Assembly: GCA_943736015.1 (NCBI GenBank)
Contig: OX031061.1
Location: 60,766,192-60,830,191, forward strand
DNA length: 64,000 nt
Reading direction: 5' to 3'
DNA from: Tridacna crocea
Lineage: Eukaryota; Mollusca; Bivalvia; Cardiida; Cardiidae
Numbering within the stretch: the stretch's first letter is position 1; each line of letters starts with the position of its first letter. Positions 2,631 through 26,167 of the stretch are shown in pieces. The notes under the pieces are model-generated. The model ran no database searches. It was not told the origin of the DNA and was given only the letters and a program-made list of their open reading frames with translations. A program made the position numbers and the translations under genes.

Positions 2631-2753
2631 AACCACATGGTCAACGGGCCTCTACAGTGAGACAGTATGGATATGTGTACAATAGTGGGAACAAACTATA
2701 TCTTCGCTTTGCTAACAACACAGAAACAAAACCAAAGGCAATCTGTGATACAG
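2631..2753 (+). CDS. Exon: C-terminal half of a lectin-like domain (copy 1)
   Basis: Acceptor ctttcttttgaacag and donor ACAG|GTTATG bound a 123-nt exon open in one frame, phase 1 at both ends. It encodes 41 residues ending LYLRFANNTE then KAICDT. It is paralogous to the exon at 16673-16795: identical length and phase, about 65% protein identity by eye, and the same intron end (cttttgaacag|aa). The single cysteine near the end sits where the last CTLD cysteine would be, so I read it as the second half of a divergent CTLD. Its first half, the equivalent of 15221-15403, was not found; it should lie upstream, possibly left of the 484-2446 transposon. Confidence 0.7.
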
Positions 2754-4145
2754 GTTATGCACATTTATCATGATACAACCAAACTCCCTATGATACAATC
2801 AACAATAATATATATGTACATGTAATTTGTGCTCTGTGAAAAAGGAGTTTAATTTCCTGGATCCATAAATATGGTCAGTTTACTTCAAAAACTTTTTAAC
2901 TATAGCTTGAAAGAAACTGTAATTACGAGGTTTTTTAAGTAAACCTACGATATGTTGATTCGCTTTATATAATGCATCTTGTAGACGTTATGCCAGAACG
3001 GCACTACTATACATTTGAACAATGGAATACACCTCAATTTACCTCTGCTTATGGGTAATACATTATAGAGTTAATTCATGTTTTTGAGGTCGTTAACATT
3101 CGCAGAGGCCTGAAAAATGGTTAAACTCCCGAGTAAGAAGCACTGGGGTCTTTAAGTATTTTTTGGACCTCTGCGAATGTTGACGGCCGAAAGAAAACGT
3201 GAATTAATGCTATCATAGCATAAAGTAATTGTCTTTCAGCAATACTTTGCAACGACAGCAGAAATATTTCCATAGAAATGCAAATGCACCGGACCTCAAT
3301 AGGTCAAAAAAGTAAATCGGCCCAGAAGTTTTTGCTACGAGCAGTGGAGGGCCGTTAGTCCTAGATGCCACTTTTGATTTTCTCGGTATAAATTCTTTTT
3401 AAATGATCTTTAATACAAAATGGACTTTCGTGAGATGACCTTGTGCAAGTTTGCACAATTACATCTTGGATCGGTTATAAATTTGTCACTGAAAGATGTC
3501 AAAGGGATAGATCTATTTCAAGCCGAGGAATTGCCGATCACGTTAAAGAGTGGGTGGGATGTAGCTGGTAAAGAGTACATTTCAATGGTGATTTTTCGTT
3601 TAGATCTCGATAAAACTGAGATTCTGAGCAAAATTTTGTTTGTGGTATACTGACCACCAAAGACAAGGCATAAAGAGGATCAAATACGATACAGGTTCCC
3701 ACAATTTTATGGTCGAAAAATAGTAAACCTCTGACAAGCCCGGATCGAGGATATTGATAGTACAAAGCCTGGCGTTGAAGTCGCGTGAATTTACTAAATA
3801 ATACACGTTTTCTGCCGTTACCGCCCGATTATTTCCTCATTTTCACATGCTTACAACGGCCCAGAAAGGCACATTTTATGCAGTAATGTGCTATAATACA
3901 CCTCATGCAATTGAAGTAACAGGACACCATTGTTGTAAAAGGTAAGATTGCCAATATGCAATTATCTTTAATTTGGCTATGATGTTTTCTCATTTTCTTG
4001 ATGTTCATATCCATGGTGGGTTTCAATACTTTTAGAAGGTTTTTTTTTTCTTACATGTAAATAATCTGCTGTGAATTTGTTTCATGAGACAATGAATCAA
4101 GTTGTTTAAGACAACTGATGTTAATAGCTAAAACTTTTTTGATAG
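2754..4145 (+). other. Intron with two small inverted repeats
   Basis: 2878-2956 is a small hairpin with TACTTCAAAAAC near one end and TTTTTTAAGTAAA at the other; a relative lies at 50683-50768. 3060-3230 is an imperfect palindrome whose arms share ATTCGCAGAGG and an outer tract like TTAATTCATG. I see nothing recognisable from 3231 to 4145. Confidence 0.5.
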
Positions 4146-5015
4146 AAGAACTAAGCCCAGAAACCCTACCAAAAGTGACTAAAGCAGGTACAAAATTAAT
4201 AAAAGGAACAGCAACAACAGGAGCAACGTTGACAACACTACCACTAAACGCAACGACCAAAACGAAAACCATAGCAACAATAACAGCCATGACAACTAAA
4301 TCAACCACAGGTACAAAATCATGGACTACAACAACAGCAGCGACAACAACAGGAAGTATAGGTACAGCAGCAATAACTACAGGTATAGCAGCAACAATAA
4401 CTACAGGTATAGCAGCAACAGTAACTACAGGTATAGCAGCAACAACAACGACAGATATAGCAGCAGCGACACTAACAAAAACTATAAGTACAAAAGTAGC
4501 GACAACAACAAAGACAAGTGCAGCGACACTAACAAGAACAACAGGTTCAAAATCAGCGGCAACAATCACAGTAACAGCAGCAGCGAAATTAACAACAACT
4601 ACAGGTATAAAAGTAACTCTAACAACTACAAGTTCAGCAGCAGTGACAACAACAACTGCAGATACAAAAGAAGCATCAACAAAAGCAACTACCAGTGACC
4701 CAGCACCTCCTGCAACAACAGCGACTACAACAAGGACTGCAAATGCAAAAGCAGCGAAAACAAAAACAAAAACAACTACAATTATAAAGGCAGAGACGCC
4801 AAAAATAACTACAGGTTCATCAGCAAATACAGCAATAACAACATTTACCACAGGTCCACCATTGACAGCTGCAGCAGCTACAGTGCTACAACCAGTAATA
4901 AACAAGATTCCATCATCACCACAAACAGCAGCGACGAAGTCTTCAAAAGCAAAAACTTCTTTTGTCTTCAATCCAACAACGATACCAGTAACACATGACA
5001 ACGTAGATAGTTCAA
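4146..5015 (+). CDS. Exon: Thr/Ala-rich mucin-like stalk (290 residues)
   Basis: One 870-nt exon, phase 1 at both ends, with acceptor acttttttgatag and donor TTCAA|GTAAGT. It codes for about 290 residues dominated by Thr, Ala, Ile and Lys (for example TTGIAATITTGIAAT), without cysteines. The DNA is a degenerate ACA/GCA triplet repeat with a 24-nt periodic core around 4375-4460. Thr-rich extracellular stretches of this kind are usually heavily O-glycosylated stalks; that role is inferred. The opposite strand is also open over this interval because of the same biased composition and is not a gene. Length likely varies between alleles by repeat slippage. Confidence 0.75.
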
Positions 5016-6014
5016 GTAAGTTATTCTATTTGATGATATAGAATGGTCTGTTGACCTTAGCTTATAAAATTGGGAGGTTCAAGACTTCTCGATCAGTATT
5101 TAAACTGAGACAAGGGTCTCTAGAGGTGTTACAGCGGATACAGAAGAGCCCTTGAATATCCTAAAAATATGAAAAAACAATCTGGAGCCAAATTTATAAG
5201 TCTTAGATAAACAAAACGTGCTGTTAACGCTCTATAGTCTAGCCTTCTCAGTACGTAAAATATGACAATCGTGAAAAACCTGCTATCTTCTTCATTTTTA
5301 GATTCAAATGAAAAAAATTCAGGAAATTTCTGGGTTGCAGGAAATTTCTGCGTTGCTGTTTTTCATCCATGTACACGCCATTCTAAAAAACTAGAAAATT
5401 TCAATACACGGGTAATTGTAGGCTTGTTTTAAGGCATCAGGAACTTTAATTCTAGAGATGCAGCCATGTGGTTAAAAGAATATGATATGACTTTGCCTTT
5501 GAGGTAAACATTTTGCTGAACTCTTTGTTATTAAGTTCTCCAATACCTCGCTTCCAAAACATTTTTCGAGTCTACGCGGAGAGTAAAATCAGGAACCCGA
5601 ACTCAGATTGGCAAAAGAGAGACTGAGCTTGTACTATAACAAGTCGATTGATATTATTTCAAAAACCTCAAAGCTCCTTCAACCATTGTTGTAAGGCACA
5701 AAGTTAGTAGTAAACCTTTTTAGCGCTAAAGGCAAAACAGGAGCTTACAAATAGATGAAGTAAGATCAGACATCACAGATCATGCTACCTGATCAGAATC
5801 TATGCCGCAAGTCCAGGAAGTCACGTGTACGAGATACAAAATAATAGTAGATGGATTGGAAAATGTTATCGCGCAAAGAGTAGGAATTTTATTCGATACC
5901 CAAAACTAGTAACAGACAGAAGAAGTGCAGCTAAAATGAGCATCTCAATGCTTGAATGACAGTAGTGTCGGCAAAAAATGCCACTAAATGTTTAATGTAT
6001 GTTGAAAGTTTCAG
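5016..6014 (+). other. Intron containing an LTR relic
   Basis: 5627-5745 matches the outer part of the LTR at about 23628-23740 (shared blocks ATTATTTCAAAA/ACCTCA and AGGAGCTT) and is a fragment of a solo LTR. At 5296-5410 the acceptor-like ttcatttttag is followed by an open stretch containing GNFWVAGNFC, but no donor keeps phase with the neighbouring exons, so I do not call it an exon. Confidence 0.45.
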
Positions 6015-6236
6015 TTCAAAGTAACACTGTAACGAACGCAGGCCAATACAGACTTGAGACAGAAAAGAGCAGCTGGCAAGATGCGAAAGATTATTGTGAC
6101 TTGTCCATACCAGACATACAATTTGAGAAAGAAAAAATTATAATCAAACCTAGTGCAGCAATCTCTTCCTTACTTAAAGAAGGGGAGGAGGCTTGGATCG
6201 GTTACGTGAAAGACTTTATCTACGTAGAGCTGAAAG
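6015..6236 (+). CDS. Exon: N-terminal half of a C-type lectin-like domain
   Basis: Acceptor aagtttcag and donor CTGAAAG|GTAAAT enclose 222 nt, phase 1-1, 74 codons. The peptide has the first-half CTLD signature: YRLETEKSSWQDAKDYC (aromatic start, then W-x-x-A-x-x-x-C with the first conserved cysteine) and then AWIGYVKDF, matching the family WIGL motif. The exon stops just after the WIGL strand, where CTLD introns often lie. The sequence expected next (NW..P, C, W..C, C) is not in the adjacent intron but appears in phase at 13973-14104. The in-phase WSC exons sit between, so the CTLD is either interrupted by a WSC domain or the WSC exons are an optional cassette. Confidence 0.8.
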
Positions 6237-7456
6237 GTAAATTATAAAACATTTTTTGTGTGTGTTTTATGACCTTTCCAACACCTCTTTTATTTAAATA
6301 GTGTTTTATGTCGCTTCAAACATTACTGTAGTTAAGATAACAGCTTTAGCTAATTTATGGGTTTTTCTCATTTTTCTTGGTTCAGCAGTACTTACGGGTA
6401 CTATGGCGATTAATACTTTGGCTTTAATGAGCTTAAACCGAGGTAGCCTTGCTCACTATGCCAACACTTAAACAACTGAGCCACGCGAAACTTCTTGCTA
6501 TAAAGTAGAGCGTTTGTTACTGTGTCTCTCCTCGTGAAATATTTGACTTATATGTCACATTCGTCTTTCACGTTTACTTCCAGGCTCCTAATTTTTAACC
6601 ATTATTACAATACAGTCTGGTATGCATTCACTAAGCGTGATTCAATCAGCTGGCAAATCGCAAACCGGCCATTCAAGAACAAATACCCACAGGGATTTGA
6701 ATCTTGCACATTTCGATTCCTTGTCGGATACGTTAAACAGCTTTTACAGCCATATTTGTCTTGAGAAACAATTTTTCTTGTAAAATACAAAGACATTACG
6801 ATATATATATATATATATATATATATCTATACACACACACGAGGGTTGTCCCCCTATATTGTGCACTGAACTTTATGTTGAAAAAGTAACCAATATTCAA
6901 GCTTTCAGTTTTCATGTTTGTTTTATTCACTTATTTTGAGCATAAAAAATACAACAAAACACTTTGGAATAACACCTTTGTAAACACTATGAAAAATGGA
7001 TATACTTAAGCTGTTTTCACCGGTGTAATGCAGATAAATGACCCTCCCCTCCCCCACAAAATGACCCATGTGCCATTTCTCTATGTAGAGGAATGAACTG
7101 GGTCATTATTCTACGTAGAGAAATTACCAATGTGAGGTCGATCGCTGCAGTACCACGTTCTACAAAAACTTAAGTTGCACTGGTTGTGTGCTTTTAGTTT
7201 TATTGATATTGCCAATTTATTATCATTTATCAGTTCAGGGAACACAATAAGTAAATAATCGTTGAACTCTTGATCTGAAGGTTGTTCTTTGGTTGTTGTC
7301 AAACGATTTTTCGGTCAATGAAATATAAAAGAGGTCGGTTCAATTCACATCGATGTGATGATACGAACGATAGATCTTCCGATCGTCAGAGAAACAAACA
7401 GGCATATATTATTGTCGTCATCGGACAGCAATAGTCTGAAAAGTTCGGTTAGATCT

Positions 7457-7656
7457 GGGTCTGTACTCACCAACCATTCTTAAGAACGGTCTTTGTCTTA
7501 TTCTTCAAGATTTTCTGACTGTGAAAGTAACAGAACTTCTGACTGGCTAAGCCAAATAGTTTAGCCAATCAGAAGTTCTGTTACTTTCACATTGACGAAA
7601 TTCTGAAGAATAGGACTAGAAACGTTCTTAAGAATGGTAGGTGAATACGGACCCTG
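7457..7656. repeat. ~200-bp palindrome (family F)
   Basis: An almost perfect inverted repeat with outer ends like GTATTCACCAACCATTCTT and its complement, centred on TGGCTAAGCCAAATAGTTTAG. Relatives lie at 33086-33290 and 46548-46744. The arms are long enough to form a hairpin of about 95 bp. No coding capacity. Confidence 0.8.
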
Positions 7657-8736
7657 GTTGTATCAAATAATGAAGAAGCTTAAGTATAAAAAGTACTAGC
7701 ATGAAAATGATATTTCCTATGGAAAAAAGTAGTTACTTGTACGTGTAAATCATACTTTCCCTTTTAAAGGCCCAGATGAAGTGGTACATTAAAATAAAAC
7801 TGTCGATACGACTGCTTGTCTATTTGGTTGTGTGTCAGTTTGCACATCGGGAATAGTTTCTGCTATGTTACTCTGTCATTTCTTGACGTGTATTCATGGA
7901 ACTTTGTTAAAGCATTTGACTCCAGTAAGGAATATATCACGAGGAAGAGTATTTACCCTATCTTTAACGTTTATGTGTTATTGCCCTGTCACGAAAAAAA
8001 ACATTTTTTCTCTCTTAACTTTGTCATTTCTTGATGCATGTTCACAACAACTTCAGAAAATGTTAAAATACTACTAATAATAATACTCTTTTGTTGTAAG
8101 CTTTACTGCTTATTTTATGCTTTAGCAGTAGTATGAATCGTGTAACACCACATATATTTGTTTTGTATGAATTTGTATATGGCCCGCGTTTGTTGCCGGA
8201 ATGATAAATTGATCAATAATTATTGTACTTCTTTCTTTTTCAGATAAGCTAGTACGTTAATCTTCTTTTTTCTTTGAAAATTTGGAAAGAGAACTTCACC
8301 AGCTACCGGCTCTTAAAGTTTGAGTAAATTGTAGTATGCTGACTTGAGAAAATAAATGTTTTCAGGACAAAAGCCATAATGGCCAAAATACTGCTTAGTC
8401 ATTTCAAACAGCTACAACAACAGCTGCCACAAGATGTTATATGAGAAGAAATATTGAGCTTGTTTTTTAAGAAAATAAGATTGTTTATGCAACTTTTACT
8501 TAATCTCGTTATTATATGTAGCACAAAACTGAAAGTATTACACAATCCAACTGTGTAGATGTGAAGTCCGAATATATCCGTAACAGGTCATGTAATAAAT
8601 TATTGGATTGAGGAAAAAAGACGAAGTCGGTGGCCCCCATTTTTTCCATCAATAAACATCATACTACAAAATATTTTACAAATTCTGGTATTGAGAGAAA
8701 AAAAAATACTGTAAGGAACGCCAAGATACTGTTTAG

Positions 8737-9000
8737 TCAGCTTTAAAACTGAACGTTAACGAGTAAGCTACTGAGTACAAGTCTAGGGCTGAAACAGCAA
8801 TAAGGTTAAAGATATTGCAACATGATAATATAATTAATATAAAGCAACTATTCATGTAATAATCAGCTTTAAAACTGAACGTTAACGAGTAAGCTACTGA
8901 GTACAAGTCTAGGGCTGAAACAGCAATATCCTTGAATAAGGTTAAAGATATTGCAACATGATAATATAATTAATATAAAGCAACTATTCATGTAATAAAA
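8737..9000. repeat. Recent tandem duplication next to the WSC exon
   Basis: 8737-8862 and 8863-8998 are near-identical direct copies (126 and about 136 bp) beginning TCAGCTTTAAAACTGAACG. The second has a 12-bp insertion (ATCCTTGAATAA). The duplication ends about 20 bp before the acceptor of the first WSC exon. Confidence 0.85.
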
Positions 9001-9019
9001 CTAGTGAAAATAATTTCAG

Positions 9020-9132
9020 GTTGCACCATTTACAACGATGAGCCAATAATCATCGAGCCTAACATAACTAAACCGTATCAGTGTGCCTATGTTTGCAGAC
9101 ATGCTCGGTTTTTTGGGCTGAGAATGTTTAAG
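9020..9132 (+). CDS. Exon: WSC domain, first part
   Basis: Acceptor gaaaataatttcag, phase 1; donor TTTAAG|GTACGG, phase 0; 113 nt. It encodes GCTIYNDEP, then YQCAYVC and FFGLRMFK. This is the first half of a WSC carbohydrate-binding domain: leading G-C, a C-x-x-x-C pair, and the F-G-L motif. The next exon supplies the remaining cysteines in frame. WSC domains bind polysaccharide in fungal cell-wall sensors and occur in animal extracellular proteins; the ligand here is unknown. Confidence 0.8.
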
Positions 9133-10980
9133 GTACGGCTCTTTTGCTTATACAAGTCTTCATGTGACAATTTATTGACTTTACCGAACAAAGTGTGATC
9201 TGGTGCGAACAACTTAGCGAAGAAAAAACAAAGAAAGAAAACGAGACTAGTTTCCTTGAATAGCTTGAATAAGGATCCTTGAGACAAGTAGTTGCTCTTT
9301 CTGTCAATTGAAATTCGTCACAGGTAATCAAGCAGGGTCTACCTGAACGAACTGACCTATTTCATTGAATGATGTTTAACTCCCATATTAACACTACTTC
9401 ACTTATATCGCGGCTACAGTGTACTTGCATATGTGTTTCATTATAATCACAAGCATTAGGCCGGAGCACCGAGGTGCTTTGCGTAGAAATATTCTAACCG
9501 GTTCCGATCTTGAGGATAAAATCATGACCTCTGGCAAATCCAAAACTGCAACCACTGAGTCGTCCAAGACCCAAAGTTGATTGATGGAATAAGAGTTTTA
9601 TAAAATAATGGTACCATTTCTCCTAAAAAAAACAGCGCCTAATTTTCTCCAAAGTAGTTTGTAGTACAGAGATAATGTCGATATATCCCGTTAACTAGGT
9701 TACATGTGTAAGTATGAGCAAATGTTTTTGAAATTCCTCCACTGTACTGGTAGATGACAAAGAAATGTTATTCTTGTCACGAAAAAGATTATCAAATAAG
9801 CGCTCAAATGCTGTTGAAAACGTGGTAAATCATACCGTTTTTTTTTTATATTAAAAATGACTTCATTACTTACTATTTTCTCTATCATCTTTGACATTAA
9901 TCAAAAGCAGGATAAGGATCAAATTTGTTCATTTATTTATTTCACATTTCAACTGCGATTGCACAGTAGATATCGTCAAAATTGTCAATGAAAAGTATAG
10001 ATCCAATGCCCGATTCCTAGATTTCATTTATGCATCGACATTGGTGACTTTAAGAAGTGTCGACCAAGGGCAGTTTACATGTTCGTGTATTTTGATCGTG
10101 GTCTTAACACTGTCTGTATCCAAACTTGTGTCCAGAGAACACCTAATAAAATTAAAGACCGTGGCCTCTTCAGTCAGGAAGTTTTTTAAATCGAGTTTAA
10201 TTGCCTTGATTTTCAGATTTTATGGAATCAAAACAACGTTGAAATATTTTATTTGTGAAAAAACAATTTTAAATTGGTAAGCGCACGAAACACGTTTAAA
10301 GGTGTCTCAAAAAGGTAGAATTGTGACAGTTTCTCCTTTTGCCAAGGTGGTATTTATGATTACAAACCAGAAAAGATCTACGGAAATAACTGTATTACAT
10401 AATGCTGTAAGGCAACATTTTCCCCTTTTCCCACTCTGTTTTAAAAAGCCCGTAATCAAGGGTTTTGGTTAAATGTTTGTTTCTTAAATAATTTTAACAC
10501 ATTTAAACCATATTTCATTTATAATCACATTGAAAGCTCAGATAATTGTTTTCTTTGATTTTGTAATGTTTCTATTTTGGATTTACCAATGCAGGATAAG
10601 AGATCTGTAGAACCGTACTCATGGACATCTCCCTGAAAATTAGTACACTGGTCAGAACTGAACTTAGAACCTGTTGATTGCAAATCCTTGCCTTTCTTAT
10701 TTAGCAGACAATCCCTTCTAGTAACGATGGTTTGGAAGAAGGCTTATGAAAACATTTAGGATTAAAGTAAAAAGGAAAATTAATGCTTGATTCAGAATGT
10801 TTTCCTTTTCCCAGATATTCATTTCTTGCATTATCACTTGAGAACATTGCCCATTTTTGAGCCAAATTTATTTGTTATCTAAAAACAATTTAATTTGAAT
10901 AAGTCTAAAACTTGAGTTAACGACGCAGGAAACGCCATAATAAAAGCACATACCTATTGTAATGCTTTTCGCCTTTTCAG
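9133..10980 (+). other. Intron within the WSC domain, no genes seen
   Basis: AT-rich, with poly-T near 9838. An open stretch at 9891-10280 has no domain signature and no matching splice sites, so I treat it as chance. 10315-10450 has weak similarity to the small hairpins at 11455 and 34665. Confidence 0.45.
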
Positions 10981-11107
10981 GGAAACATGAGGTGTATCTG
11001 TCTCAATAATACTAGCAATAACTTGCTCGAAAAGCTTTGCACCACTACATGCCATGAGTCAGACCTTTTATGCGGCAGGAGAAAGAGATATGCTATATAC
11101 GAGGGCG
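10981..11107 (+). CDS. Exon: WSC domain, second part
   Basis: A strong acceptor (cttttcgccttttcag) opens a 127-nt exon, phase 0 to phase 1, ending GGGCG|GTTTGT. It reads GNMRCICLNN, then LCTTTCHESDLLCG and RYAIYE. Together with 9020-9132 this gives eight cysteines in the WSC order, including the C-x-C pair, C-x-x-x-C and the CG..R..IY end. The join FFGLRMFK-GNMRCIC closely fits the family pattern. The donor GTTTGT is weaker than consensus. Confidence 0.8.
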
Positions 11108-13972: not shown

Positions 13973-14104
13973 TATCCAATGAAGAAAAGCTGACTGGAGT
14001 CGTGTATAAAAATTGGAGAGAACCGAGTGCAAAGTGTCTAGCTAATCACAAATTTTTCTACAGGTGGGAGAACTGCAGTGTGCCTCTGCGACCAATTTGT
14101 TCAA
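13973..14104 (+). CDS. Exon: C-terminal half of a C-type lectin-like domain
   Basis: Acceptor gtttgtttccatacag, donor TTCAA|GTACGA, 132 nt, 44 codons, phase 1-1. The peptide contains YKNWREPSAKC followed by WENCSVPLRPIC. This is the canonical second half of a CTLD: N-W with P four residues later, a cysteine, W-x-x-C, and C-x7-C at the end. The positions of the EPN and WND calcium/sugar motifs read EPS and WEN, so calcium-dependent sugar binding is uncertain. It matches in phase the first-half exon at 6015-6236. Confidence 0.85.
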
Positions 14105-14529
14105 GTACGAAAAGTTTGTTTGTTTTTTTTTTTACATAATGTTGTAATATACGTTTATATGCATTGTATGTACAGTATATTTTTCCAATACCTTGGTTAT
14201 ATATTTTGGTGCTCTAAACCGGAATTATATGGTCTTTACTGCATGAAGACTGCTGCAATTATATGTAGAAAGTGTATGGCGTAAAATACCCTTCTTGAAA
14301 ACTGAACAACTTGTAGAATGTTCTTTCGACCTTTTCTCTTACTTGTACTAGAAAATTTGTAGTATGTCCTTTCGACCTTTTCTTTTGTTCTATAAATAGT
14401 TAAGCGCCGATCCTCAATTTTCCGGTTCCAAAACAAAATATAAATCAAATTACCGTTTGTAATAGTTATGTCATTTAATTGCAAACACTACTGTAATATA
14501 CACGTAACATACATGCAAGGAAATTTATT

Positions 14530-15065: not shown

Positions 15066-15220
15066 ACACTGGTGGAATTTATTTCAATTTTGATGATGTG
15101 TAACTTGCAGGATATTATGTAAGATTTTATAGCCAATAATCATGGCCTACCTACATTCCTGGTTACTGAAAATAAAAGTTGCAGTTAACACCCCTAATAT
15201 TTTTTTATCTATTTTTCTAG

Positions 15221-15403
15221 AAGTCGGATTTCCCCCCATTGTACTGAAGCCGTCTAGAAAATGGTATGAAGCAGCTTTAAATTGTTTAAAAAGGAACCAT
15301 TCTATACAGCCTTACACGAAACACGTTATTCATGTAAACACAAAGACAAACGAATATCTGTGGACTGCTAATACTCGATTTATGCACGTATTTGGAGACA
15401 ACG
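15221..15403 (+). CDS. Exon: N-terminal half of second lectin-like domain
   Basis: An excellent acceptor (tttttttatctatttttctag), donor ACAACG|GTAGAT, 183 nt, 61 codons, phase 1-1. It reads SRKWYEAALNCLKRN (W-x-x-A-x-x-x-C as in the 6015 exon) and ends EYLWTANTRFMHVFGDN, which aligns with EEAWIGYVKDFIYVELKG of the first CTLD. The boundary falls at the same structural point. The WIGL motif is degenerate (LWTAN), and this lectin-like domain is divergent. Confidence 0.7.
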
Positions 15404-16672: not shown

Positions 16673-16795
16673 AACGATATAGACAAAAGGCCTCTGCAGT
16701 TAGACAGTACGGATATGTGTTTAAAAGCAATAACACACTATATCTTCGATTTGCTGACAGCACGGAAACAAAACGCAAAGCCGTTTGTGATGAAG
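16673..16795 (+). CDS. Exon: C-terminal half of second lectin-like domain (copy 2)
   Basis: Acceptor atcttttgaacag, donor TGAAG|GTGAGG, 123 nt, phase 1-1. It encodes ASAVRQYGYVF, LYLRFADSTETK and KAVCDE. It is paralogous to 2631-2753. With 15221-15403 it makes one divergent CTLD keeping only the outer disulfide pair (NC near the start, VC at the end). Confidence 0.75.
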
Positions 16796-17966
16796 GTGAG
16801 GTATAATATCATGATACATATAAACTCTTAGTGATACAATAAGCAGTTTTATTTCATGTTTTCCGGTATCAAGAAATAGCAGTGAAAATATTTTTCGATC
16901 TTACACTTGTACCACTAGTGAAAATACAGATTTTCACGTTCTTGTTGCCTAGGTAAATTGCGCGTGCCTCCCAACCAGACGAGAAATATTACGTCATTTA
17001 CCTTACATTTCTCGCGCTTGACGTTATATTGTAATGCGTTGCTATGCGGAAGGGGTACGCCACGGGGAATAACGGAAAAGAACTGCTCTGGATTTTGATA
17101 AAGCTCCTCCCAGAAAGGGTCAAAAGCATGAAATAAATAGAATAGTTGGGGTTTTTTTTGTGAAAGATCGGGTGAACGCCATCGGAAATATTTTCACGAG
17201 TGGCGCCGCCACTCATGAAAATATTACCAATGGTGTCCACTCGATGAAATAAATTTTTGATCTTTCAACGAAAAAAACAAATATCCTGTATATAATTATG
17301 AGTCATGCTCCGTACAAAAAAGGGTTTAATGCATCTGTAAAAGGTATCAATTCAGAGAAATGACTTTCCCCTACAAAATGACCCAGGTCCTTATTCTATG
17401 AAGAGCAATGACCCCATGGGTCATTTCACAAAGTAGAGAAATGACCCCCATGTATTCATGATTTGATTCATGGTGTTTATAGGCGATTTAGAATTCTAAC
17501 ATGACACGTGAGTTCGGCTCTATAAACACAGTGCAACGAAAGCAGATAGAATCTATGTTATACTATATAAACTGACTTCGTTCCATGTAGAGTGACGTCA
17601 TTGTGTATAAAGTAAGTAAGTTATTCAATGGAACATGATGTTCATCCGCGTTTTACTCTTAGTATGAACTTCTTTTCCTTTCATCAAGAGTTGGTCATGT
17701 AAGAATGAAAACAATCATGTTTTTATCGTGGTTTATCGTTCAATAAACCACGTTGTGAGTTTTGAAGCTCACTGAATAACCCACTCGGCTGTCACCCTCA
17801 TGGATTATTTATTGTGCTTCATAACTCACAACTGTGGTTTATTGAACGATAAACCGCGATAGAAAAAAGATTATTTCTTAATTTTTTTGCTTTTGCTTAA
17901 TGAAATAAGATATATGTAACTCTTTCAAAGATGTAAAACTGCTTTTGACATTTTTAATAAACCCAG
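16796..17966 (+). other. Intron with three repeats
   Basis: 16845-17290 is a family G repeat (TTTCCGGTATCAAGAAATAG to the GATCTTTCAACGAAAA end), also at 31615-32240 and 37105-37560. 17335-17460 is a CTACGTAG-family copy. 17721-17768 and 17816-17865 are inverted arms sharing GTGGTTTATCGTTCAATAAA or its complement, forming a hairpin with a 47-bp loop. Confidence 0.6.
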
Positions 17967-18062
17967 TAATACCACCAAAACCAGTCACAAAAGTAACAAC
18001 ACAAATTACGACAGCAGAAACAACAGTCATAGCAGCAGAAACGACAGAAGAAGGAACAAGAA
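17967..18062 (+). CDS. Exon: short Thr-rich linker
   Basis: Acceptor aataaacccag, donor AAGAA|GTAAGT, 96 nt, 32 codons, phase 1-1. It encodes IPPKPVTKVTTQITTAETT and a further Thr/Glu-rich stretch. It is the second Thr-rich exon of this gene, placed after a lectin-like domain just as 4146-5015 is, which suggests a repeated unit of lectin-like domain plus linker. It probably forms the juxtamembrane stalk. Confidence 0.7.
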
Positions 18063-18667
18063 GTAAGTGATTTTAATATTTTGTGCGAGATAAAACTCTG
18101 TTAACGTTAACTTCAGCTTAATAAATTTGAATGTTCAAAATCATTTGATTCCTGTTTGGCATAGAATTACGGCACGAGTCTCTAAAGTGATAAGGAGGGA
18201 CACTGAATACATTGCAAAAAACCTGGGAAAAATGCTGAAGCTCAACTCTGAAATGGTAATATTCTGCCATGTTGGATACGGCCACTTATGATAGACTTCT
18301 GCTAAAAGTTATTTTGTAAGAGGTAGACTCCAAGCTAAAGACTTTCAATTAAAAAAACCCGAGTTTTTATTGTTGTTACTGTCACTTTTATAACATGCAT
18401 CTAACACAAATGACATTGAAGACCAATAATATTGAAGAAGTATTTCATTTTTGTTTGTATGTAACACCCCTATGATAGACTAAGAAGAAAAAATATACTT
18501 TTGAAAGCCTTCACTTTTTTAAGTTGAATCAATAGACGAATATTGATAATAGTTAAGAGCTCTTTAGTTTGACAATATTCATCAATATGCCCTTGATATT
18601 TGTAAAATAGGCCGTAAGCCTACATGTCTGATTTATCATGTTCCATTATTATCTTTTTTATATATTA
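18063..18667 (+). other. Intron, nothing recognised
   Basis: Unique-looking AT-rich sequence up to the boundary of the LTR retrotransposon. No splice-bounded exon in phase was seen. Confidence 0.4.
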
Positions 18668-18673
18668 GGTTTC

Positions 18674-18990
18674 TGTTACGAGCCATGCGTAACGAGAAAG
18701 AAAACCAGTAAAAAGCCTATAACAATTAACAATATTTATTAATGAACAAAGACAAAATAGTACAATAGTTAAAATTGAATGAAATTTGATAATTTTTAAA
18801 GTTGGAGCAAGAAATAGAATAAGTCCCTCAAAATTAAGAATTAGGGTTAGATTAAATAACGAATGAAACTTATGGTTCCTAAAACCTAAATTAACGATAG
18901 TTGAACTTGCAAGTAGATATGAGCAACCTGTTTAAAATAAAGTAATTCCAACTTACAGATCTAAAATCCAAGTTAAATCCAACACTTTTC
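18674..18990 (-). repeat. LTR remnant, 3' side relative to the element
   Basis: Matches 23316-23620 through several blocks (AATAAGTCCCTCAAAATTAA, GGTTCCTAAAACCTAAATTA, AATTCCAACTTACAG). Similarity ends near 18990, after which AT-rich sequence replaces the rest of the LTR. Confidence 0.75.
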
Positions 18991-19295
18991 ACTATTTCTA
19001 GATCCTCCCAGCCACAAATCTAAGTTCAAGTCCAAAATCATCTAGTAAGTCATTCCTATTTATATCCGTAATTAAAATTTAATTAATTGTAATAAATTAT
19101 AGCATTTCTGTTATTTTAAAGTAATTGGTAATTAATGTAAAAATGAATTACTTTAAATGAAAATAATTATTGAAAGAACATAATAGGTAAATAATTAACA
19201 ATATTAAATTAAATTACTTTTCAATTACATGTAGCAAACAATGTAACAAAGAAACCCTTCGTTGAAAAGACAGGTTTATTATGCGGTGATTATTT

Positions 19296-19880
19296 TTACC
19301 TTGGAGTAAAATTTTTTTCCTTGGTCATCTCCGAAAAAGGTGTTGCCAGACCATTCACGGATAATAAACAGTTGAAATGGAAACATCCGGTACCAGAACT
19401 GTCAAAATAGTAAGACCTTTCAGAGGTCAAATTGAATGTTTGCTCAAGTGCTGGAACTTGTCTGTAAAAGGGTAGAAAACATTGTGGAAAAAGATGAAAA
19501 AGCCAATATTTTCTATTTTCCCACAATGTTTTCAAAAGCTGTGTGTTTCAGGGTCGTTGAAAGTCAGGATTGTATAGAAAAGGATTGTTTGACAAAGAAG
19601 TAACCAGTGGTACATTCATCATACCTGTGTTTTTTACATTTTATCGAATAAAAAGATCTACTTCGTTCTTTATTTATTTACCAAACTAACAAAAATTGGA
19701 ATCTAACAAAATAAAAGTATATGCAGGTGATAGAACTAATGAAGCCCGAATGAAACTTTGTCTTTGATAAAGTAGGAAACATTGGAAGGAAAGGGGAAAA
19801 TACCAGTAACCGTCATTTTTTCCTTACCTTGCAATGTTCTCTGAGGCTTTATCTTTCAGGATCATTAGCGCTTGGGCTTG
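19296..19880. repeat. Two diverged copies of the family A hairpin
   Basis: About 19435-19560 (GGTAGAAAACATTGTGG ... CCCACAATGTTTTC) and about 19760-19880 (GAGGAAACATT-like ... GCAATGTTCTCTG) are worn copies of the hairpin MITE that is abundant after 26 kb. They lie inside the retrotransposon region. Confidence 0.6.
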
Positions 19881-20039
19881 TATGTTTCCTAGAGTTTCAT
19901 TGTCTATGTATAAATGTAATACCAAATGATAAAAAAAAAAACGTTTTTGATTCATTTACTTTTATAGAAAGCAAATTATTATAATCTTAATTGAAACATT
20001 TCTATTTTAATTGTAATTTATTAATTACTTTAATCCAAG

Positions 20040-20380
20040 TCTGGTCACATTTTATGTAGTTGACCCTATTAGGAAATTACTGTAGTTGACCGTATGAATG
20101 TATTAAAAACTATGATTTAGTAAGGTCAATAACGGTTAACGACTGTTTACTACGTTCAAACTACGGTCACAGTACTGTCACAACAATGTAGTTAACCGTA
20201 ACAAATTTTTGAACATGTTTGATAATATTGTGCTTAGTACAGGCAAAACGGAAGTTCAAACTACGTTTATTACTACGTTGAACTACGGTTAACTACGTGT
20301 AACTACGTTCAAATACGTTCGATACGTTTAACTACGGCAATCTACGGTCATTCCCCACTACGATCAACTACGTTAGGTGA
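20040..20380. repeat. Cluster of AACTACG heptamers
   Basis: More than a dozen near-copies of AACTACG, TTCAAACTACG and GTTAACTACG are scattered at irregular spacing, densest from 20265 to 20370. It occupies the place where the RT body of the retrotransposon should be. Not a standard microsatellite because the spacers vary. Confidence 0.6.
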
Positions 20381-20389
20381 GACCATAGC

Positions 20390-20980
20390 TTAAGATGCTC
20401 CAATTTCTTGGGATTTATTCGATATGGATGTTGTTTCACTGGTTTTGAATTTTCAAGGTCAACATCATGATATATTGTATTTGTCGTGTTGTCGTGTTAT
20501 CCGGGAACAGGTGCTCATATTCAGAAATTGACTTTTTAATACATCGTTTTGATGATTATCTAAATGTGTTAGTTTTTGTTCTAAATTTCTTAAAATATCA
20601 AAATTTTGAAGCTTTGACAAATAGGGTTAGACTTACCAAAGCTCATTTCTTTTGATTTTGAGGGACTCAGGAAACTGCATTCATCGGGGAAACATTTGAA
20701 TTATCCCTATCAACATATTCTTTTAACATATTGGTATGACATAATTGCTTTTGCTTTCGCCTGTCAGGAGTTATTGTCACATAATTCCAGTCACTGACCT
20801 TTTTCTCTACAGAATACACACAACAATATTTTGCTTGTACAGGCCTACCAGAAATTGGTAGAAGAGCTAAAATATCTTTCTTTAACTTAACGTTGAGTTT
20901 TCTCTATATTATTATGAATTTTGTAATAGGTTTTATTGATACCTAAATGAGATGTTACATATGCTAAGCTTAATATTTCT
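20390..20980 (-). pseudogene. Retroelement integrase fragments and start of RT region
   Basis: Read on the - strand with frameshifts. About 20955-20915 gives HLGINKTYYKI, the integrase zinc-binding start. About 20800-20720 gives TPDRRKQKQLCHTNMLK, the conserved post-integrase segment. About 20475-20395 gives DLENSKPVKQHPYR, the segment before RT palm motifs in Gypsy-class elements. The integrase core is deleted and RT stops right after its lead-in. Confidence 0.65.
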
Positions 20981-21389
20981 AATTAAAAGATTTAGGAACG
21001 ACAACTTGATGATTGACAGCCCACTCATCATCAACAGAGACTTTGGGAGGGAGCCACTTTCTCATTAATGTTCCATTTTTGGTATAAGAATATACAGGTT
21101 CCTGTGAAAAATCAGTTTCACTGACAGCTTTTTGAAATAAATGTGATATTTCTGGATCGTTGTATTGGTTTTCACTTAGTTTTGACCTTGACTTTGTATC
21201 ATGGCCATTTTTAACTAAAGGTGAAGACGTGTAATCCGATTTTGATGAACTAAGTTTAGAATTAGTCTGACTTTCAGACGGGATTTGTGAAGTGGGCCTC
21301 TTAATTTCATTTTTAAATAAACGACCCAACAAAGAATCAGATAAGTAAGTACCAGACTGATTTTCAGTCGAAATGACTTTCTTTGCCAT
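20979..21389 (-). pseudogene. Retroelement spacer between protease and integrase
   Basis: Open frame of 136 codons containing YSYTKNGTLMRKWLPPKV and AVNHQVVVPKSF. In related Gypsy elements a segment of the form LMRKW..P....W..VHQ.VVPK. directly precedes the integrase zinc finger. That integrase start does follow here after a stop. Confidence 0.7.
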
Positions 21390-21479
21390 AGCTCTAATGA
21401 CTCTGCATGAAGAGTAAAGATCAGGAATTTCTTCCTCAATCGGATCGGGTGATTGATCCGTGCAAGGTGTGTCATTTAG

Positions 21480-21890
21480 AAGTGGATTAAAATTACCACA
21501 TCTCCGGCTAAATCATTGCCTGCTAACAAAGAAACACGTTTTTTTTTCTCATAGTACCTGCAGTCACTGGACCATTAATTAAGTCTGAAGACAAATACAT
21601 GTTATGAAGCGGAACATTAACAAATCCACATTCTACAACCTGAATAAAGACACCTGTCCCAGAAGAAGTCTTCTCAGAAAAAAAGCAGGAAATCTGCTAA
21701 AATAAGAGAATGAGAAGCTCCAGTATCATGTAAAATTTTAATAGGGTAGGCTGCGTAAACTCACTTTTTAGTGACTCAAAACCATCTGATAAGAATGTTT
21801 CATAAATCTACAAAACAGTATCAGTCTTAGGTACTTTGGTCTGGACAAAAGTTTCTTCTTTAAAACATGAGTGAGGTGTAGATTTTCATG
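21480..21890 (-). pseudogene. Retroviral-type aspartic protease remnant
   Basis: On the - strand 21727-21711 encodes DTGAS, followed by HSLILAD, the active-site motif of retroelement proteases. The frame is broken by stops and an A/T tract near 21540. No protease function is expected. Confidence 0.65.
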
Positions 21891-22570
21891 AAGTAAAGCC
21901 TGTAGGCTCAAAACTTTCTTGTTTTTCACTTTTTCTTTTTAAAACAGGACATTTAGAAATAATATGACCTACATGTAATCCTTTGCAATAATTACAAGTA
22001 GGTCGAGATGAGGAATTTTGACATTTGCCTTCATAAGGAGACTTGGGTTTGGGACTGTTCTGATTGGAATTGTCATAAAGTTGATTAAAATTTGGTTTAG
22101 GACCAGTAGATGAATAAAAAGTTTTTCGATGGTTTGATTTATTCATGAAAGAGACCTTATGCGTCAAGGCGAAGTTGTCTGCTAAACAAGCAGCTTCTTC
22201 TAAAGTTTCAACTTCTTTCTCGTCTAGGAAAGTTTTTTACATCTAAATTAATGCACCTTTTAAATTCTTCAACTAACAGAAGTTGTCTAAGATTTTCATA
22301 TGAACCTATTTTCTTTGAATTGTACCAACTATTTTCTTTTTTTTTTTTTTTTTTGTGTTAGCAAATTCAATACGGGTTTACCATTTCTTTTCTGCAATTC
22401 CTAAATATTTGTATATATGCTTCAAGTGCCAATTCATAAGCTTTTATAATCAATTCCTTAACATTATCATAGGTAGAAAGCTGCTCATTATTTAGTTTGG
22501 AAAAATATCGCAATCCTTTCCTATTACAACGCTTTGCAAAAGTAAGGTCCGGTGTTCTTTTTGTCATTCG
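21886..22570 (-). pseudogene. Retroelement gag remnant with zinc knuckle
   Basis: 22567-22367 reads KELIIKAYELALEAYIQIFR, resembling the gag of SCAN-like Gypsy elements. After a poly-A tract and frame changes, LRQLLLVEEFKRC and LEEAACLADNFALTHK continue the capsid-like part. 22000-21945 gives CNYCKGLHVGHIISKC, a variant C-x2-C-x6-H-x4-C knuckle. The piece is broken by at least two frameshifts. Confidence 0.7.
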
Positions 22571-22679
22571 AATTTTCGGCTAATCTTTCAAAATGTGAAA
22601 AGTATCTATCAACTTTCTGTTCTTGAAATGGCGGAACAAGGGTCTGAGAGTTTTGTTATGTCAAAGTCATTAACCACAT

Positions 22680-22990
22680 GCAGAGATGGGTTTTTCTTCA
22701 TTTTCTATTTCTATTTCTTTCTTTCTGATCTGAAATTGCTTATCGTTTTTCTCTATTTTTTAATTCAGCATACTAGTAATTTTTTTCTTTTTCTAACTCC
22801 AATTCTTTTTCTTTCATTTTTTTTTTTTTTTTTTTGTTTTTTGTTCTTGCTCTAATTTTAATTTCAATTCTTTTTCCTCTTGCTCTGATCTTAATTTTAA
22901 TTCTTTTTCTTTCATTCTTTCTTTTTTTCCCATTTGTAGTTGTAATTTTCCTAATTCATTATTCCCTTTAATGTCTGTCTGAGACAGAAG
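22680..22990. repeat. T/C-rich low-complexity tract
   Basis: Long TTTCTTTTTC-type tract with an 18-bp poly-T near 22820. On the - strand this is an A/G-rich Lys/Glu segment of the retroelement's gag region rather than a gene. Confidence 0.55.
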
Positions 22991-23315
22991 TTTACGAGAC
23001 TGAAAAAACGAGTTATGTATATCTTCATCAACTAAAAACTGAATAATAAAAGTCTTAAAAATTCATGCTTTAACATAGTACCTTTAATGGCAGTCAATTT
23101 ATAATGAGAAGCAAGCTCTATAACAAAGCAGACTTCCTTGCCAACTTCAAACAACTCCTGTATTCGCTCAGCAATATTTTTTTCAAGATCAAAAGACATG
23201 ATTGCTTTTTGCTGGTCAAGTAGAATACAATCTTTTTTTCCCCAAAAAACTTTTACACTGTAACAATTTCGACATAACTTTAAAGTATATCCAAAGTGAC
23301 CAGAAGATCAGTCCC

Positions 23316-23770
23316 GGACGAGCCAAGCGTAACGAGAAAGAAAGCAAGCATCAAGCCTTGAACAGTTAACAATGTTTATTAATGAACAAAGACAAAAGAG
23401 TACAATAAGACTTAAGATTTAATTAAATTTGACAATGTTCAGTCTTAGATCTAGAAATAGAATAAGTCCCTCAAAATTAAGAGTTAAGTTTAGATTACAA
23501 AAAGAATTGAATTTCTGGTTCCTAAAACCTAAATTAACAATAGTTTAACTTGCAAGTGCAACCTGCTCAAAAAATAAAGTAATTCCAACTTACAGATATA
23601 AAGTCCAAGTTAAATCCAAAACTGTATACTTTAACAAGCCGAGTAACATTATTTTCAAAACCTCAGAGCTCCCGTAGAGAGTCTGTAAGGTACAAGACCA
23701 ATCGTAGAAGACATTTTGACTAGCGTAAGACAAAATAGGAGCTTTCCTAGGGTATAAATTGTGCAGTTTA
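23316..23770 (-). repeat. LTR, 5' side relative to the element
   Basis: The more complete LTR copy. Its outer part (23628-23740) is also present as a fragment at 5627-5745. The exact outer end is uncertain because no target duplication is visible. Confidence 0.65.
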
Positions 23771-23861
23771 ATCATGGATATACATATATTTGGCTTGATT
23801 ACTTAATCAAACCTTTAAAACTCAATTCTTTCTGAGTTCAACTTGACTGTGCTTTTTTTAG

Positions 23862-23915
23862 CCGTCGAAGAGGTCGAAATTGTATACATGTATTCGGCTT
23901 TGGAGAGCTTAAGAT
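23862..23915 (+). CDS. Possible juxtamembrane exon
   Basis: A strong acceptor (gactgtgctttttttag) is followed by an open stretch. A weak donor AAGAT|GTATCA would give a 54-nt exon, phase 1-1, encoding VEEVEIVYMYSALESLR just before the membrane span. The phase fits both neighbours. The weak donor and lack of a domain keep this tentative. Confidence 0.35.
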
Positions 23916-24032
23916 GTATCAATTCAAATTCCGACAAGGCTACGATTCTTGCTGAAGATCTAGACTCTCTGTCCTATCTTATATAATACTTTTTTCTGCA
24001 TCTTGTCTTCGATTTCGGTTTTTATATTACAG

Positions 24033-24114
24033 ATGGCCATTCCAACTCTGTTACCATGATAATGTTGCTGATTGTGGTGCTCGTGATTTTGCCGACAGTA
24101 GCGGGTTCTGTATG
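24033..24114 (+). CDS. Exon: transmembrane segment
   Basis: Acceptor tttttatattacag, phase 1; donor TATG|GTAAAA, phase 2; 82 nt. It encodes GHSNS followed by VTMIMLLIVVLVILPTVAGS, a clear hydrophobic membrane span. Splicing to 25204 completes a Trp codon and continues FIMKWKYGRNSK, giving the positive residues expected on the cytoplasmic side. This orients the product as type I, with lectin and WSC domains outside. Confidence 0.8.
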
Positions 24115-24163
24115 GTAAAACCGATAAAATTGCCCTAAGATAGAGTGTTAACCCTTATTCTAC

Positions 24164-24377
24164 TTAACCCTTATTCTGCCGTTCGCGACCATGGATAACT
24201 TTTGCGGAGAGTGTAAAGCAAGATCAGCCTGCACATACGTGCAGTCTGATCTTGCTCTACACCCTCCGCTGCTTTATCGGTAGTTTGGATCATATAAGCC
24301 CAGCCCAATGACCGTACATTTAGCAAATAGTTTTTGTGAAATCGTCAACAATTTTTATTTGGCAAGATAAGGGTTAA
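24164..24377. mobile_element. Family C hairpin MITE
   Basis: TTAACCCTTATTCTGC at the left and GCAAGATAAGGGTTAA at the right are inverted ends. The centre GATCAGCCTGCAC/GTGCAGTCTGATC forms the hairpin. TTAA at each end is the likely piggyBac-type target duplication. Confidence 0.8.
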
Positions 24378-24568
24378 TAACTTATTTGAAACTTTTGATT
24401 CAATAGTAAAAACCCAAATATTGCAATTTCAAAGTTATGGTTTGGGGATGATATCTCTTTATCGGGGAGTGTAGATCGAAGATCAGATTGCACGATCTGT
24501 GCAGTCTGATCTTGATATACACTGCCCGCAAAAGGTCAGTGAGTTTCGCTTACCAGCCTAAGGGTTAA
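24374..24568. mobile_element. Second family C copy sharing its TTAA with the first
   Basis: Starts at the TTAA that ends the previous copy and finishes CCTAAGGGTTAA. The centre is GATCAGATTGCACG and CTGTGCAGTCTGATC. Confidence 0.7.
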
Positions 24569-25203
24569 TGCTAGAAACTCATTGAAATCTCAAATTCTCG
24601 GAATTGCAATTACAAGGGCAAAAGGACACCGACGATTGGCTGGTTTGCTAATAGCCTGACTGACTGGATGGCCGGCTAGTCGCCTGGCTACCTGCCTGCT
24701 GGCAGGTTAAGTGACCGACCGACCAAATGACCGACAAAATAGAAGGCTGGCAAAACTGAAAGCTATTATCGAATACAGAATTCAATTAAATGTGACTGAA
24801 CTGATGCCATTAACGCAGAGAAATTTAGATTCGTCGGATGTTTCTTTTCCTGTTTTTTGCATGTACATGTATTGGAGTTTAACGCCATTCTAACAGCTTA
24901 GGTCATATCATGGAGGTCATTGGCGCACCCATGTGTTTCCTAGCTTTCCCTCACTAGTACTGACACAACTTTCTGTCTAAAGACACTGGCCACTTTTCTC
25001 ACATGCATCAGAAGTGACAGGCAAAAAATTGCCAGAAAGAAAGTTCGCCGCAACTTCCAGGTCACGAGTCAGATACACTAACCACTGAGTTATCCGGCCA
25101 TGCGTGCCTTTTCTGAAAACTAAATATTAGCCTACTAAGTGCAAATTGCTTGTTTAATAGAGGTGGCAAGCAAGACAGGCTACGTTGTACACTACATTTT
25201 TAG
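24569..25203. other. Intron with a tRNA-like SINE head
   Basis: 25035-25110 read on the - strand gives GGATAACTCAGTGGTTAG (A-box like) followed by a CTCGTGACCTGGAAGTTG-type B-box remnant, as in tRNA-derived SINEs. 24640-24720 is a GGCTGGCTGACTGACTGG-like short-period repeat. Confidence 0.5.
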
Positions 25204-26167
25204 GTTTATTATGAAGTGGAAATATGGTAGAAATTCAAAACCGGGCGATAAGGAGGAAATTCCACTGGACAATCAATTTGTTAAAACAGCAGAGGAACCC
25301 GAGGAGGATGTGGAGTATGAAGAGATAGATTTTGATTACTTAATAGGAAATACGTGTAACCAAGCTGTTGCTTCGATACAAGTTAACGTTGAAACTGAAA
25401 TAAGAGATAATCTCAATTATACTGACCTCACATGTGGTGAGGGAAATGCGTCAGTAAATTATTTCATTCCTGAAAAAAATAAACCAACAGATAAAGATGA
25501 TACGAAAATGGTAGGCATGAGCAATGTCACGTGTGGTGAGAGAAATGTTTCAGCAAATTCTTTTATTCTGGAAAAGAATAAATTAGCAAAAGGAGGGGAT
25601 ACTAAAATCGCCGGTTTGAGCAATGTCATGTGGATCGAGGGAAATGCTGCTGCAAATGATTTCATTCCTGAAAAGAACGAACCAGCAAATGGAAATGATA
25701 CTAAAATGGCAGGTATGAGCAGTGTCACAAATGGTGAGAGAAATGTTTCCGCTTCTGCAAACTATTTTATCCTGGAAAAGAATGAACTCACAAATGAAGA
25801 CCGAATGGAATTGGCAGCCAAGTCCTGTATTGACGTTACAAGTAGCCAACTTCATATCTACGACAAGACAGGCGGATGGAACAGTAACGAACACTATGAT
25901 GTAATCGGAAAGATAAATAAAATCGCTCTAGATGAACAACAAAACCCATATGATACTACAAAAAATGTCGCTCTTCGTTATAACTCCGAAAATAGGACAA
26001 AGGCCATGACTGATGCTGTAAAAGATAAAGTAGATAACAGTGATTATAACGAAGTCGATATAACTTACGATAAAGGTAACCCTAAAGGTGCTGGGCAAGA
26101 ATTAAGCGACTCTGGGGACATTGAAGACATAGTCCAGGCTACACATAATATGCAGACTGATCTTTGA
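25204..26167 (+). CDS. Terminal exon: cytoplasmic tail with tyrosine motifs and 99-bp repeats
   Basis: Acceptor tacactacatttttag, phase 2. The exon is open to a TGA at 26165-26167 and encodes 320 residues starting FIMKWKYGRNSKPGD. The tail is acidic near the membrane and holds VEYEEIDFDYLIG; Y-E-E-I is the preferred ligand of Src-family SH2 domains. It also has HYDVI, NYFIL and DYNEV as further Y-x-x-hydrophobic sites. Residues about 75-208 are four repeats of 33-35 residues of the form T.GE.N.S.N.FI.EKN. The C-terminus MQTDL has a T-x-L end that fits a class I PDZ ligand, but its DNA resembles a family C transposon end. Signalling is inferred from motifs only. Confidence 0.8.
25427..25828 (+). 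repeat. Four tandem 99-bp coding repeats
   Basis: The phase-setting Thr or Met codons fall at 25430, 25529, 25628 and 25727, exactly 99 bp apart. Each unit encodes a variant of TCGERNVSAN, FILEKN and DTKMAGMSN. The fourth unit carries a two-residue insertion. Confidence 0.85.

Follow-up and report, generated by a model that had tools for sequence, protein, structure and literature searches.

A candidate family of clustered receptor genes in Tridacna crocea, with a putative WSC-like module inside a C-type lectin-like domain and a probable gene fusion

Proteins containing C-type lectin-like domains (CTLDs), or CTLDcps (Pfam Lectin_C, PF00059), bear their canonical sugar site in a long loop region with the motifs EPN and WND (PMC7618208, in excerpt), and introns downstream of the WIGL motif of the CTLD are already known (PMC514892, in excerpt). 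WSC domains (PF01822) are found in Kremen and in the fungal Wsc sensors. Both domains can occur in one protein: hPKD1 bears a CTLD and a WSC domain (PMC1934368, in excerpt), and bivalve-specific CTLDcps with additional domains, WSC among them, are stated without detail (PMC10140915, in excerpt). Here we describe a stretch of 64,000 nucleotides from the bivalve Tridacna crocea (assembly GCA_943736015.1, contig OX031061.1, referred to as C6; C6:60766192-60830191), hereafter the window, in which a first-pass annotation made from the letters alone had placed a single eleven-exon gene (2631-26167) for a receptor with lectin-like domains, a Thr/Ala stalk, a WSC domain, a membrane span and a tail with tyrosine motifs.

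Our proposal, held with moderate confidence, is that the window lies in a tandem family of genes for type I receptors whose CTLD is split by a WSC-like insert, and that the copy within the window is a fusion of two units. A standard member, as modelled for gene 2 of the cluster, would consist of a signal peptide, a CTLD broken 13 residues past its WIGL tryptophan by the WSC-like module, a second CTLD-like module, a stalk rich in Thr, a single membrane span and a long tail in which tyrosine motifs are conserved. The CTLD/WSC head would bind a ligand at the cell surface and tail tyrosines, once phosphorylated, could recruit SH2 proteins through sites resembling the immunoreceptor tyrosine-based inhibitory motif (ITIM), namely [VI]xYxxI and SxYxxV. 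Among vertebrates, ITIM-bearing C-type lectin-like and immunoglobulin receptors are likewise clustered and fast-evolving and have tail motifs of this kind; the C-type lectin-like ones are type II proteins, whereas the cluster here is predicted to encode type I proteins with a CTLD form of their own and a long tail. Clustered receptors with conserved tyrosine tails, if that is what these are, would offer a testable way into recognition coupled to phosphotyrosine in an invertebrate lineage; the fused copy would illustrate a way in which such receptors gain units.

The locus resembles other CTLDcps in that two of its exons, once joined, match Lectin_C and in that the intron between them occupies the known site after WIGL (PMC514892, in excerpt), but here the coding sequence is interrupted by a WSC-like module and the motifs of Ca2+ site 2 are not conserved. 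With WSC proteins it shares eight cysteines in order and spacing, a CG and a terminal aromatic residue, but the module falls below Pfam detection and lies within the gene segment of another domain. Compared by description only, the bivalve proteins of PMC10140915 also combine CTLD and WSC in one uncharacterised protein, but nesting, a tyrosine tail and a gene cluster are not described in the passages of that source consulted. Polycystin-1 and the sea urchin REJ proteins differ from our model, which has one membrane span and a WSC-like module within the CTLD, and neither the protein as first annotated nor that of gene 2 gave a Pfam match to PKD repeats, REJ, GPS or PLAT. The architecture had been put forward as one without a known name; the pairing of WSC and CTLD in bivalve proteins has been published in general terms (PMC10140915, in excerpt), while for a WSC module inside a CTLD no report was found in the literature searched (open papers, as passages and listings), nor was the nesting, cluster, tyrosine tail or fusion reported there.

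The gene cluster and the joined open frame

Exon peptides were searched against 244 kb, made up of the window with 140 kb upstream and 40 kb downstream, in a genome of 1,048,827,098 bases in 31 contigs. They reveal four or more related genes in tandem on one strand, with the window at one end of the cluster; sites to the left of the window bear negative numbers, counted so that the base before window base 1 is 0. We number family exons from the window unit (6015-26167, plus strand), in which exons 3 to 8 are 6015-6236, 9020-9132, 10981-11107, 13973-14104, 15221-15403 and 16673-16795. To its left lie unit 3, gene 2, gene 1 and gene Y, in that order. Exon order, phases, paralogy, the intact frame and the exons missing from unit 3, as set out below, can be read directly from the DNA at the level of predicted exons.

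The eleven-exon outline of the first-pass annotation was sound as far as the exons go, all of which have usable splice sites and consistent phase across the window. Internal borders are in phase 1 except 9132/10981 (phase 0, inside the WSC-like module) and 24114/25204 (phase 2). Where the outline has to be amended is in its boundaries, as its first two exons (2631-2753 and 4146-5015, both plus strand) belong to the upstream unit 3. The first is an exon 8-type C-half module, 68% identical over 40 residues to 16673-16795 and paralogous also to exon 8 of genes 1 and 2, with DNA likeness that extends into the flanking introns. The second encodes a Thr/Ala-rich stalk by composition (98 T, 49 A, 21 S and 14 P in 290 residues), as had been claimed, and its 3' end and the next intron are colinear with the stalk and stalk-transmembrane intron of gene 2. 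The remainder of unit 3, a signal peptide at -11731 and exons 3, 4 and 5 at -11102, -8466 and -671, lies 0.5-11.7 kb left of the window. One open frame spans both units, from this signal peptide some 11.7 kb left of the window to the stop at 26167, in 15 exons and 1181 residues with no internal stop.

The point of junction would be the intron at 5016-6014 (plus strand). Sequence past 5015 matches the stalk-membrane intron of gene 2 at 5046-5194 and 5397-5508 and then the match ends, and likeness to unit-3 exon 3 starts at 6012. Read straight on through 5015, the frame would meet a stop at 5041. The unit-3 signal peptide, MARNSISVPFLFVFIL, is near-identical to that of gene 2, MARNSILTSFLFVFIL, and within the 244 kb the block around the signal-peptide exon matches at full length only ahead of these two (a dispersed repeat likewise matches the first 60 bases of the block); a scan of 5016-6014 gave no signal-peptide-like exon with a phase-1 donor. 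In unit 3 itself the 244-kb search found no copy of exon 6 or 7 and recognised no membrane or tail exon. Thus one unit without exons 6-7, membrane span and tail would be joined in a single frame to another without a signal-peptide exon, and a deletion that fused two neighbouring genes is likely the simplest account of the window copy. A fragment at 5632-5677 resembles 23627-23672, at the edge of the retroelement-like insert described below, with a weaker match at 5707-5746, and since the former sits near the fusion point the retroelement may have had a role in the deletion.

Constraint on the concatenated ectodomain exons bears on whether all of this is coding. Against the window unit, the proportions of synonymous and nonsynonymous differences (pS/pN) are 0.619/0.352 for gene 1, 0.398/0.256 for gene 2 and 0.307/0.212 for unit 3; pN is below pS in every concatenated comparison, which supports the coding status of the exons. 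Over six pairs the ratio of the corresponding rates, dN/dS, is 0.24-0.63, a range that fits fast evolution with net purifying selection, and exon 4 alone reaches 1.03 between unit 3 and the window unit.

Three points tell against fusion into a working gene. The signal-peptide exon was searched for and not found in gene 1 and is not pinned down in gene Y, which weakens its absence ahead of the window unit as evidence; an assembly deletion or gap could mimic a fusion; and a dN/dS of up to 0.63 is weak constraint. It is possible, if doubtful, that unit 3 is a decaying remnant and that the window unit by itself makes the working product, spliced from the unit-3 signal-peptide exon to 6015 or from an unrecognised start. 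The exons missing from unit 3 and the weak constraint between it and the window unit would suit such a remnant, as would two features of splicing: all joins concerned are in phase 1, so that skipping the unit-3 domain exons keeps the frame, and the pyrimidine tract of the acceptor at 6015 is poor, crude scoring placing this acceptor below a second one at 6042. Against this reading stand the open frames and usable splice sites of six unit-3 exons and a pN below pS.

Downstream of its two CTLD-like modules the window unit continues, on the plus strand, with a short Thr-rich stalk (17967-18062, from the exon model), a transmembrane exon (24033-24114) that ends in phase 2, likewise in genes 1 and 2, and the tail exon (25204-26167). 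An earlier last border, 24109/25163, was dropped in favour of 24114/25204, a phase-2 join with an equivalent acceptor in genes 1 and 2, which yields an uninterrupted membrane span and, after it, a basic stretch. Judged by hydropathy and the exon models, a signal peptide, one membrane span and a cytoplasmic tail would be present in gene 2 and in the fused gene alike, so that the type I layout first suggested is retained, with the amendment that the signal peptide lies outside the window.

Within the stalk-membrane intron, direct repeats at 18678-18986 and 23318-23623, 83% alike, surround minus-strand open reading frames (e.g., 21886-22236) with a gag-like CCHC knuckle, and the region 18678-23623 looks like a retroelement-like insert. 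An "exon" seen by eye at 19002-19045 was discarded, as it adjoins the 310-bp direct repeat of this insert.

The cytoplasmic tail

The tail of the window unit is about 320 residues long, as the first-pass annotation had it, with the same phase-2 join as in genes 1 and 2; it contains repeats of about 33 residues (25428-25749) and ends at a stop codon at 26165-26167. Its Y-x-x-hydrophobic sites, YEEI among them, were also correctly called: YEEI, YTDL, YFIL, YDVI and YNEV. Such sites number 5 in the window unit (shuffle mean 2.57; 166 of 2000 shuffles reach 5), 4 in gene 2 (98/2000), 7 in gene 1 (1/2000) and 5 in gene Y (239/2000). ITIM-like sites, [SILV]xYxx[ILV], number 3 in the window unit (shuffle mean 0.44; 11/2000 reach this), 2 in gene 2 (62/2000), 2 in gene 1 (92/2000) and 1 in gene Y (672/2000). 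It counts against an inhibitory-type tail across the family that ITIM-like enrichment is clear in the window unit only, genes 2 and 1 showing it weakly and gene Y not at all.

The tail tyrosines are kept above other residues. In the alignment of three genes, 7 of 11 tyrosine columns are invariant against 52 of 205 other columns (P 0.0067), and with four genes the figures are 5 of 9 against 22 of 186 (P 0.0014). Conserved sites are [VI]xYxxI and SxYxxV, shared by genes 1, 2 and the window unit, and YF[IV]LEK and YDx[IL]G, shared by four genes; neither pairs of the immunoreceptor tyrosine-based activation motif nor NPxY occur in the three tails. Our best guess from these motifs is a tail coupled to phosphotyrosine and SH2 domains.

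The main rival is endocytosis, since AP-2 reads Yxx-hydrophobic signals. The tail would then be an endocytic or adaptor one and the protein a scavenger or an adhesion mucin without phosphotyrosine signalling, a reading we regard as possible, though not probable. The conserved YF[IV]LEK and YDx[IL]G are themselves Yxx-hydrophobic, and Thr-rich stalks together with absent Ca2+-sugar motifs would suit a scavenger or mucin; however, three of the four genes carry a further two sites that agree with the ITIM consensus, and the acidic YEEI looks more like a ligand of SH2 domains than a signal for AP-2. The tail reading frame of gene Y, at -92301, ends in seven YDHT repeats.

The lectin-like head and the WSC-like module

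Exon 3 (6015-6236) encodes what would be the N-terminal half of a CTLD, with a W..A...C helix and a WIG motif, and is followed by a phase-1 intron 13 residues past the WIG tryptophan; exon 6 (13973-14104) would supply the C-terminal half (NW.EP..C ... W.NC ... ICS). Joined without exons 4-5, the two exons of the window unit match Lectin_C at 23.8 bits (E 7.8e-5, profile positions 2-105 of 107; cut-off 22.6 bits). No such match is obtained with exon 3 alone, exon 6 alone, the joins 7+8, 3+8 and 7+6, or the natural order 3-4-5-6, whose spliced product would have 198 residues; the join 3+6+7+8 gives 21.6 bits, and a hybrid of exon 3 from unit 3 and exon 6 from the window unit gives 20.8 bits. As the 3+6 join was picked after the exons had been seen, shuffle tests weigh more than this first hit. 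Scored with a local hidden Markov model (HMM) built on 14 CTLDs taken from PDB chains, exon 3 followed by a shuffled exon 6 reaches the real join in 8 of 2000 trials for the window unit, 27 of 2000 for gene 1 and 10 of 2000 for gene 2, and a profile-profile comparison of the join gives P 5e-7. Across the family, W..[AVI]...C is present in five of six exon-3 copies and W[IV]G in all six, the intron falls 13 residues past the WIGL-type tryptophan in all six, and the final cysteine is found in exon 6 of all three copies. Against PDB, the profile of the join found four mannose-receptor-2 CTLD chains (E 0.034-1.1) and then three Klotho chains (1.9), the full profile of three genes found only a mannose-receptor CTLD (E 1.4) and one unrelated chain, and the ectodomain as first annotated found nothing relevant.

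Exons 4 (9020-9132, Cys 1-3) and 5 (10981-11107, Cys 4-8), both on the plus strand, form a symmetric two-exon module of phase 1-1 whose eight cysteines follow WSC order and spacing in four of four units (genes 1, 2, unit 3 and the window unit), with the CG and terminal aromatic of WSC. A WSC HMM from seven sequences scores it at 17.5 bits in the window unit, 22.4 in gene 1, 12.1 in gene 2 and 13.9 in unit 3. Full shuffles reach these scores in 0 of 999, 0 of 1000, 0 of 999 and 1 of 1000 cases, respectively, and shuffles that keep the cysteines in place in 7, 2, 94 and 32 per 1000. In a profile comparison the score of 24.4 is reached by 0 of 100 column permutations, or 2 of 100 with cysteines fixed. 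With an earlier model from four sequences, one of them a typed consensus, the score of the window unit was reached by none of 1995 free shuffles and by 15 of 500 that kept the cysteines; in a second run free shuffles reached the scores in 1/499, 0/499, 0/500 and 1/500 cases (units in the order above), and the profile comparison gave P 0.0047. It is likely, then, that exons 4-5 are a WSC module, with a signal that is mostly cysteine pattern. Because the CTLD match emerges only when exons 4-5 are left out, the coding sequence of the module likely lies within that of the CTLD, past the WIGL motif; genes 1 and 2, and probably gene Y, share this exon order. A WSC domain had been annotated beside the CTLD, and what holds of this is the eight-cysteine framework, placed between the CTLD halves and under the Pfam threshold. 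If the nesting is true, a whole disulfide-rich domain would have been shuffled into an intron beside the lectin ligand loop, and would stay hidden from profile annotation because neither half nor whole matches.

Exons 7 and 8 (15221-15403 and 16673-16795, plus strand) look like a second copy of this plan. Exon 7 has the W..A...C helix motif and LWTAN, its intron lies 13 residues past the corresponding tryptophan in four of four copies, and paralogue comparison makes exon 8 the C-half. Profiles are another matter: exons 7+8 have no Pfam CTLD match, shuffles reach their local HMM score in 16 of 966 cases in an earlier run and in 6 of 475 (window unit), 84 of 475 (gene 1) and 126 of 489 (gene 2) in a later one, 18 of 200 shuffles reach the score of exon 7 against the exon 3 profile, and the exon 7+8 profile found one NKG2-D chain in PDB (E 1.8). 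We therefore treat exons 7-8 as an unproven CTLD, the gene structure of a CTLD being present and profile support absent, so that of the lectin-like domains first claimed it is the 3+6 join that stands.

Several results weigh against this view of the head. Searched as written, the first-annotated protein and the intact ectodomain matched no Pfam family at E<=10, neither CTLD nor WSC, an outcome that the first-pass annotation had itself named as refuting its reading, and the gene 2 protein likewise had no CTLD or WSC profile match. Of four natural exon 3+6 pairs, that of the window unit alone exceeds the Lectin_C cut-off; two lie below it at E<0.003 (gene 1, 20.5 bits, E 0.00081; gene 2, 18.9 bits, E 0.0027) and gene Y has no match. 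Pfam WSC matches none of the four units, nor gene Y, whose WSC-like exon 5, with borders not fixed, has lost two cysteines. Finally, the canonical Ca2+-sugar motifs do not appear conserved: read by eye at Ca2+ site 2 (EPN/QPD and WND), the window unit has EPS/WEN, genes 1 and 2 have no EPx, and WND is replaced by WET/WEN. The label "glycan-sensing" of the first-pass annotation is weakened accordingly, and the head would be expected to bind sugar without Ca2+ or not at all.

It is unlikely that exons 4-5 are an alternative cassette, skipped to give an ordinary CTLD and included at the cost of the CTLD fold. Their phase 1-1 symmetry and the return of the Lectin_C match on leaving them out are what such a cassette would show, but the module retains all eight cysteines in genes 1, 2, unit 3 and the window unit and likely six in gene Y, and constant use is equally possible. 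That they are an unrelated eight-cysteine module, WSC-like in cysteine spacing only, is improbable: the absent Pfam WSC match, a four-sequence module profile with no PDB hit at E<=10 and the rates of the cysteine-keeping shuffles speak for it, but order, spacing, CG and final aromatic are those of WSC and the scores beat nearly all free shuffles.

Retaining a WSC-like module nested in the CTLD, we offer a more tentative extension. The WSC module, placed in the ligand-loop region, might form a composite binding head, having entered the intron after WIGL by exon shuffling before the cluster expanded, and the products might be inhibitory-type receptors of a small, fast-evolving cluster in this mollusc, in which new forms arise by unit loss and gene fusion.

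Neighbouring genes and other features

Gene 2 (-54404 to -21794) is complete, with a 713-residue model, and gene 1 runs from exon 3 at -80746 to the end of the tail at -60414, both on the same strand as the window unit. For gene Y, also on this strand, the exon-peptide search placed exon 3 at -131093 and exon 8 near -108950; a combined HMM and motif scan placed exon 4 at -122978, exon 5 near -121900, exon 6 near -120972, exon 7 near -117423, the membrane exon near -93292 and the tail near -92301, most exon borders not being fixed. A scrap of a further unit, an exon 8 relic with a stop, lies on the minus strand at -85089 to -85006.

The whole-genome search scores the best candidates only, which makes its counts lower bounds: the window ectodomain has at least 24 matches at E<=10, all 20 of those with E<0.01 inside the cluster, and the others include two cluster places (E 0.0106 and 0.0537), C6:15.67 Mb (E 0.24) and a place on contig C17 (E 3.6), while the tail has at least five matches, all within the cluster. 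The place at C6:15671411-15671563, 45 Mb away, is an exon-3-like CTLD half that the exon-3 HMM matches at E 8.7e-8 in a 3-kb locus, with a phase-1 donor where expected and the 13-residue spacing of the family, which places a distant relative there. Protein-database searches with the ectodomain region, the tail region and the three-gene alignment gave nothing at E<=1, a further point against the proposed family; as the bivalve coverage of the database is not established, we leave rarity unjudged.

Elsewhere in the window, a short repeat family with an inverted-repeat core occurs at 26656-26883 and many other places, with copies in both orientations. An open reading frame of 119 residues on the minus strand (38270-38629), rich in cysteine (..YQLCCKTC..), resembles an exon of a different secreted protein, and at 63104-63324 a 114-bp unit is repeated 1.9 times with 87% matches.

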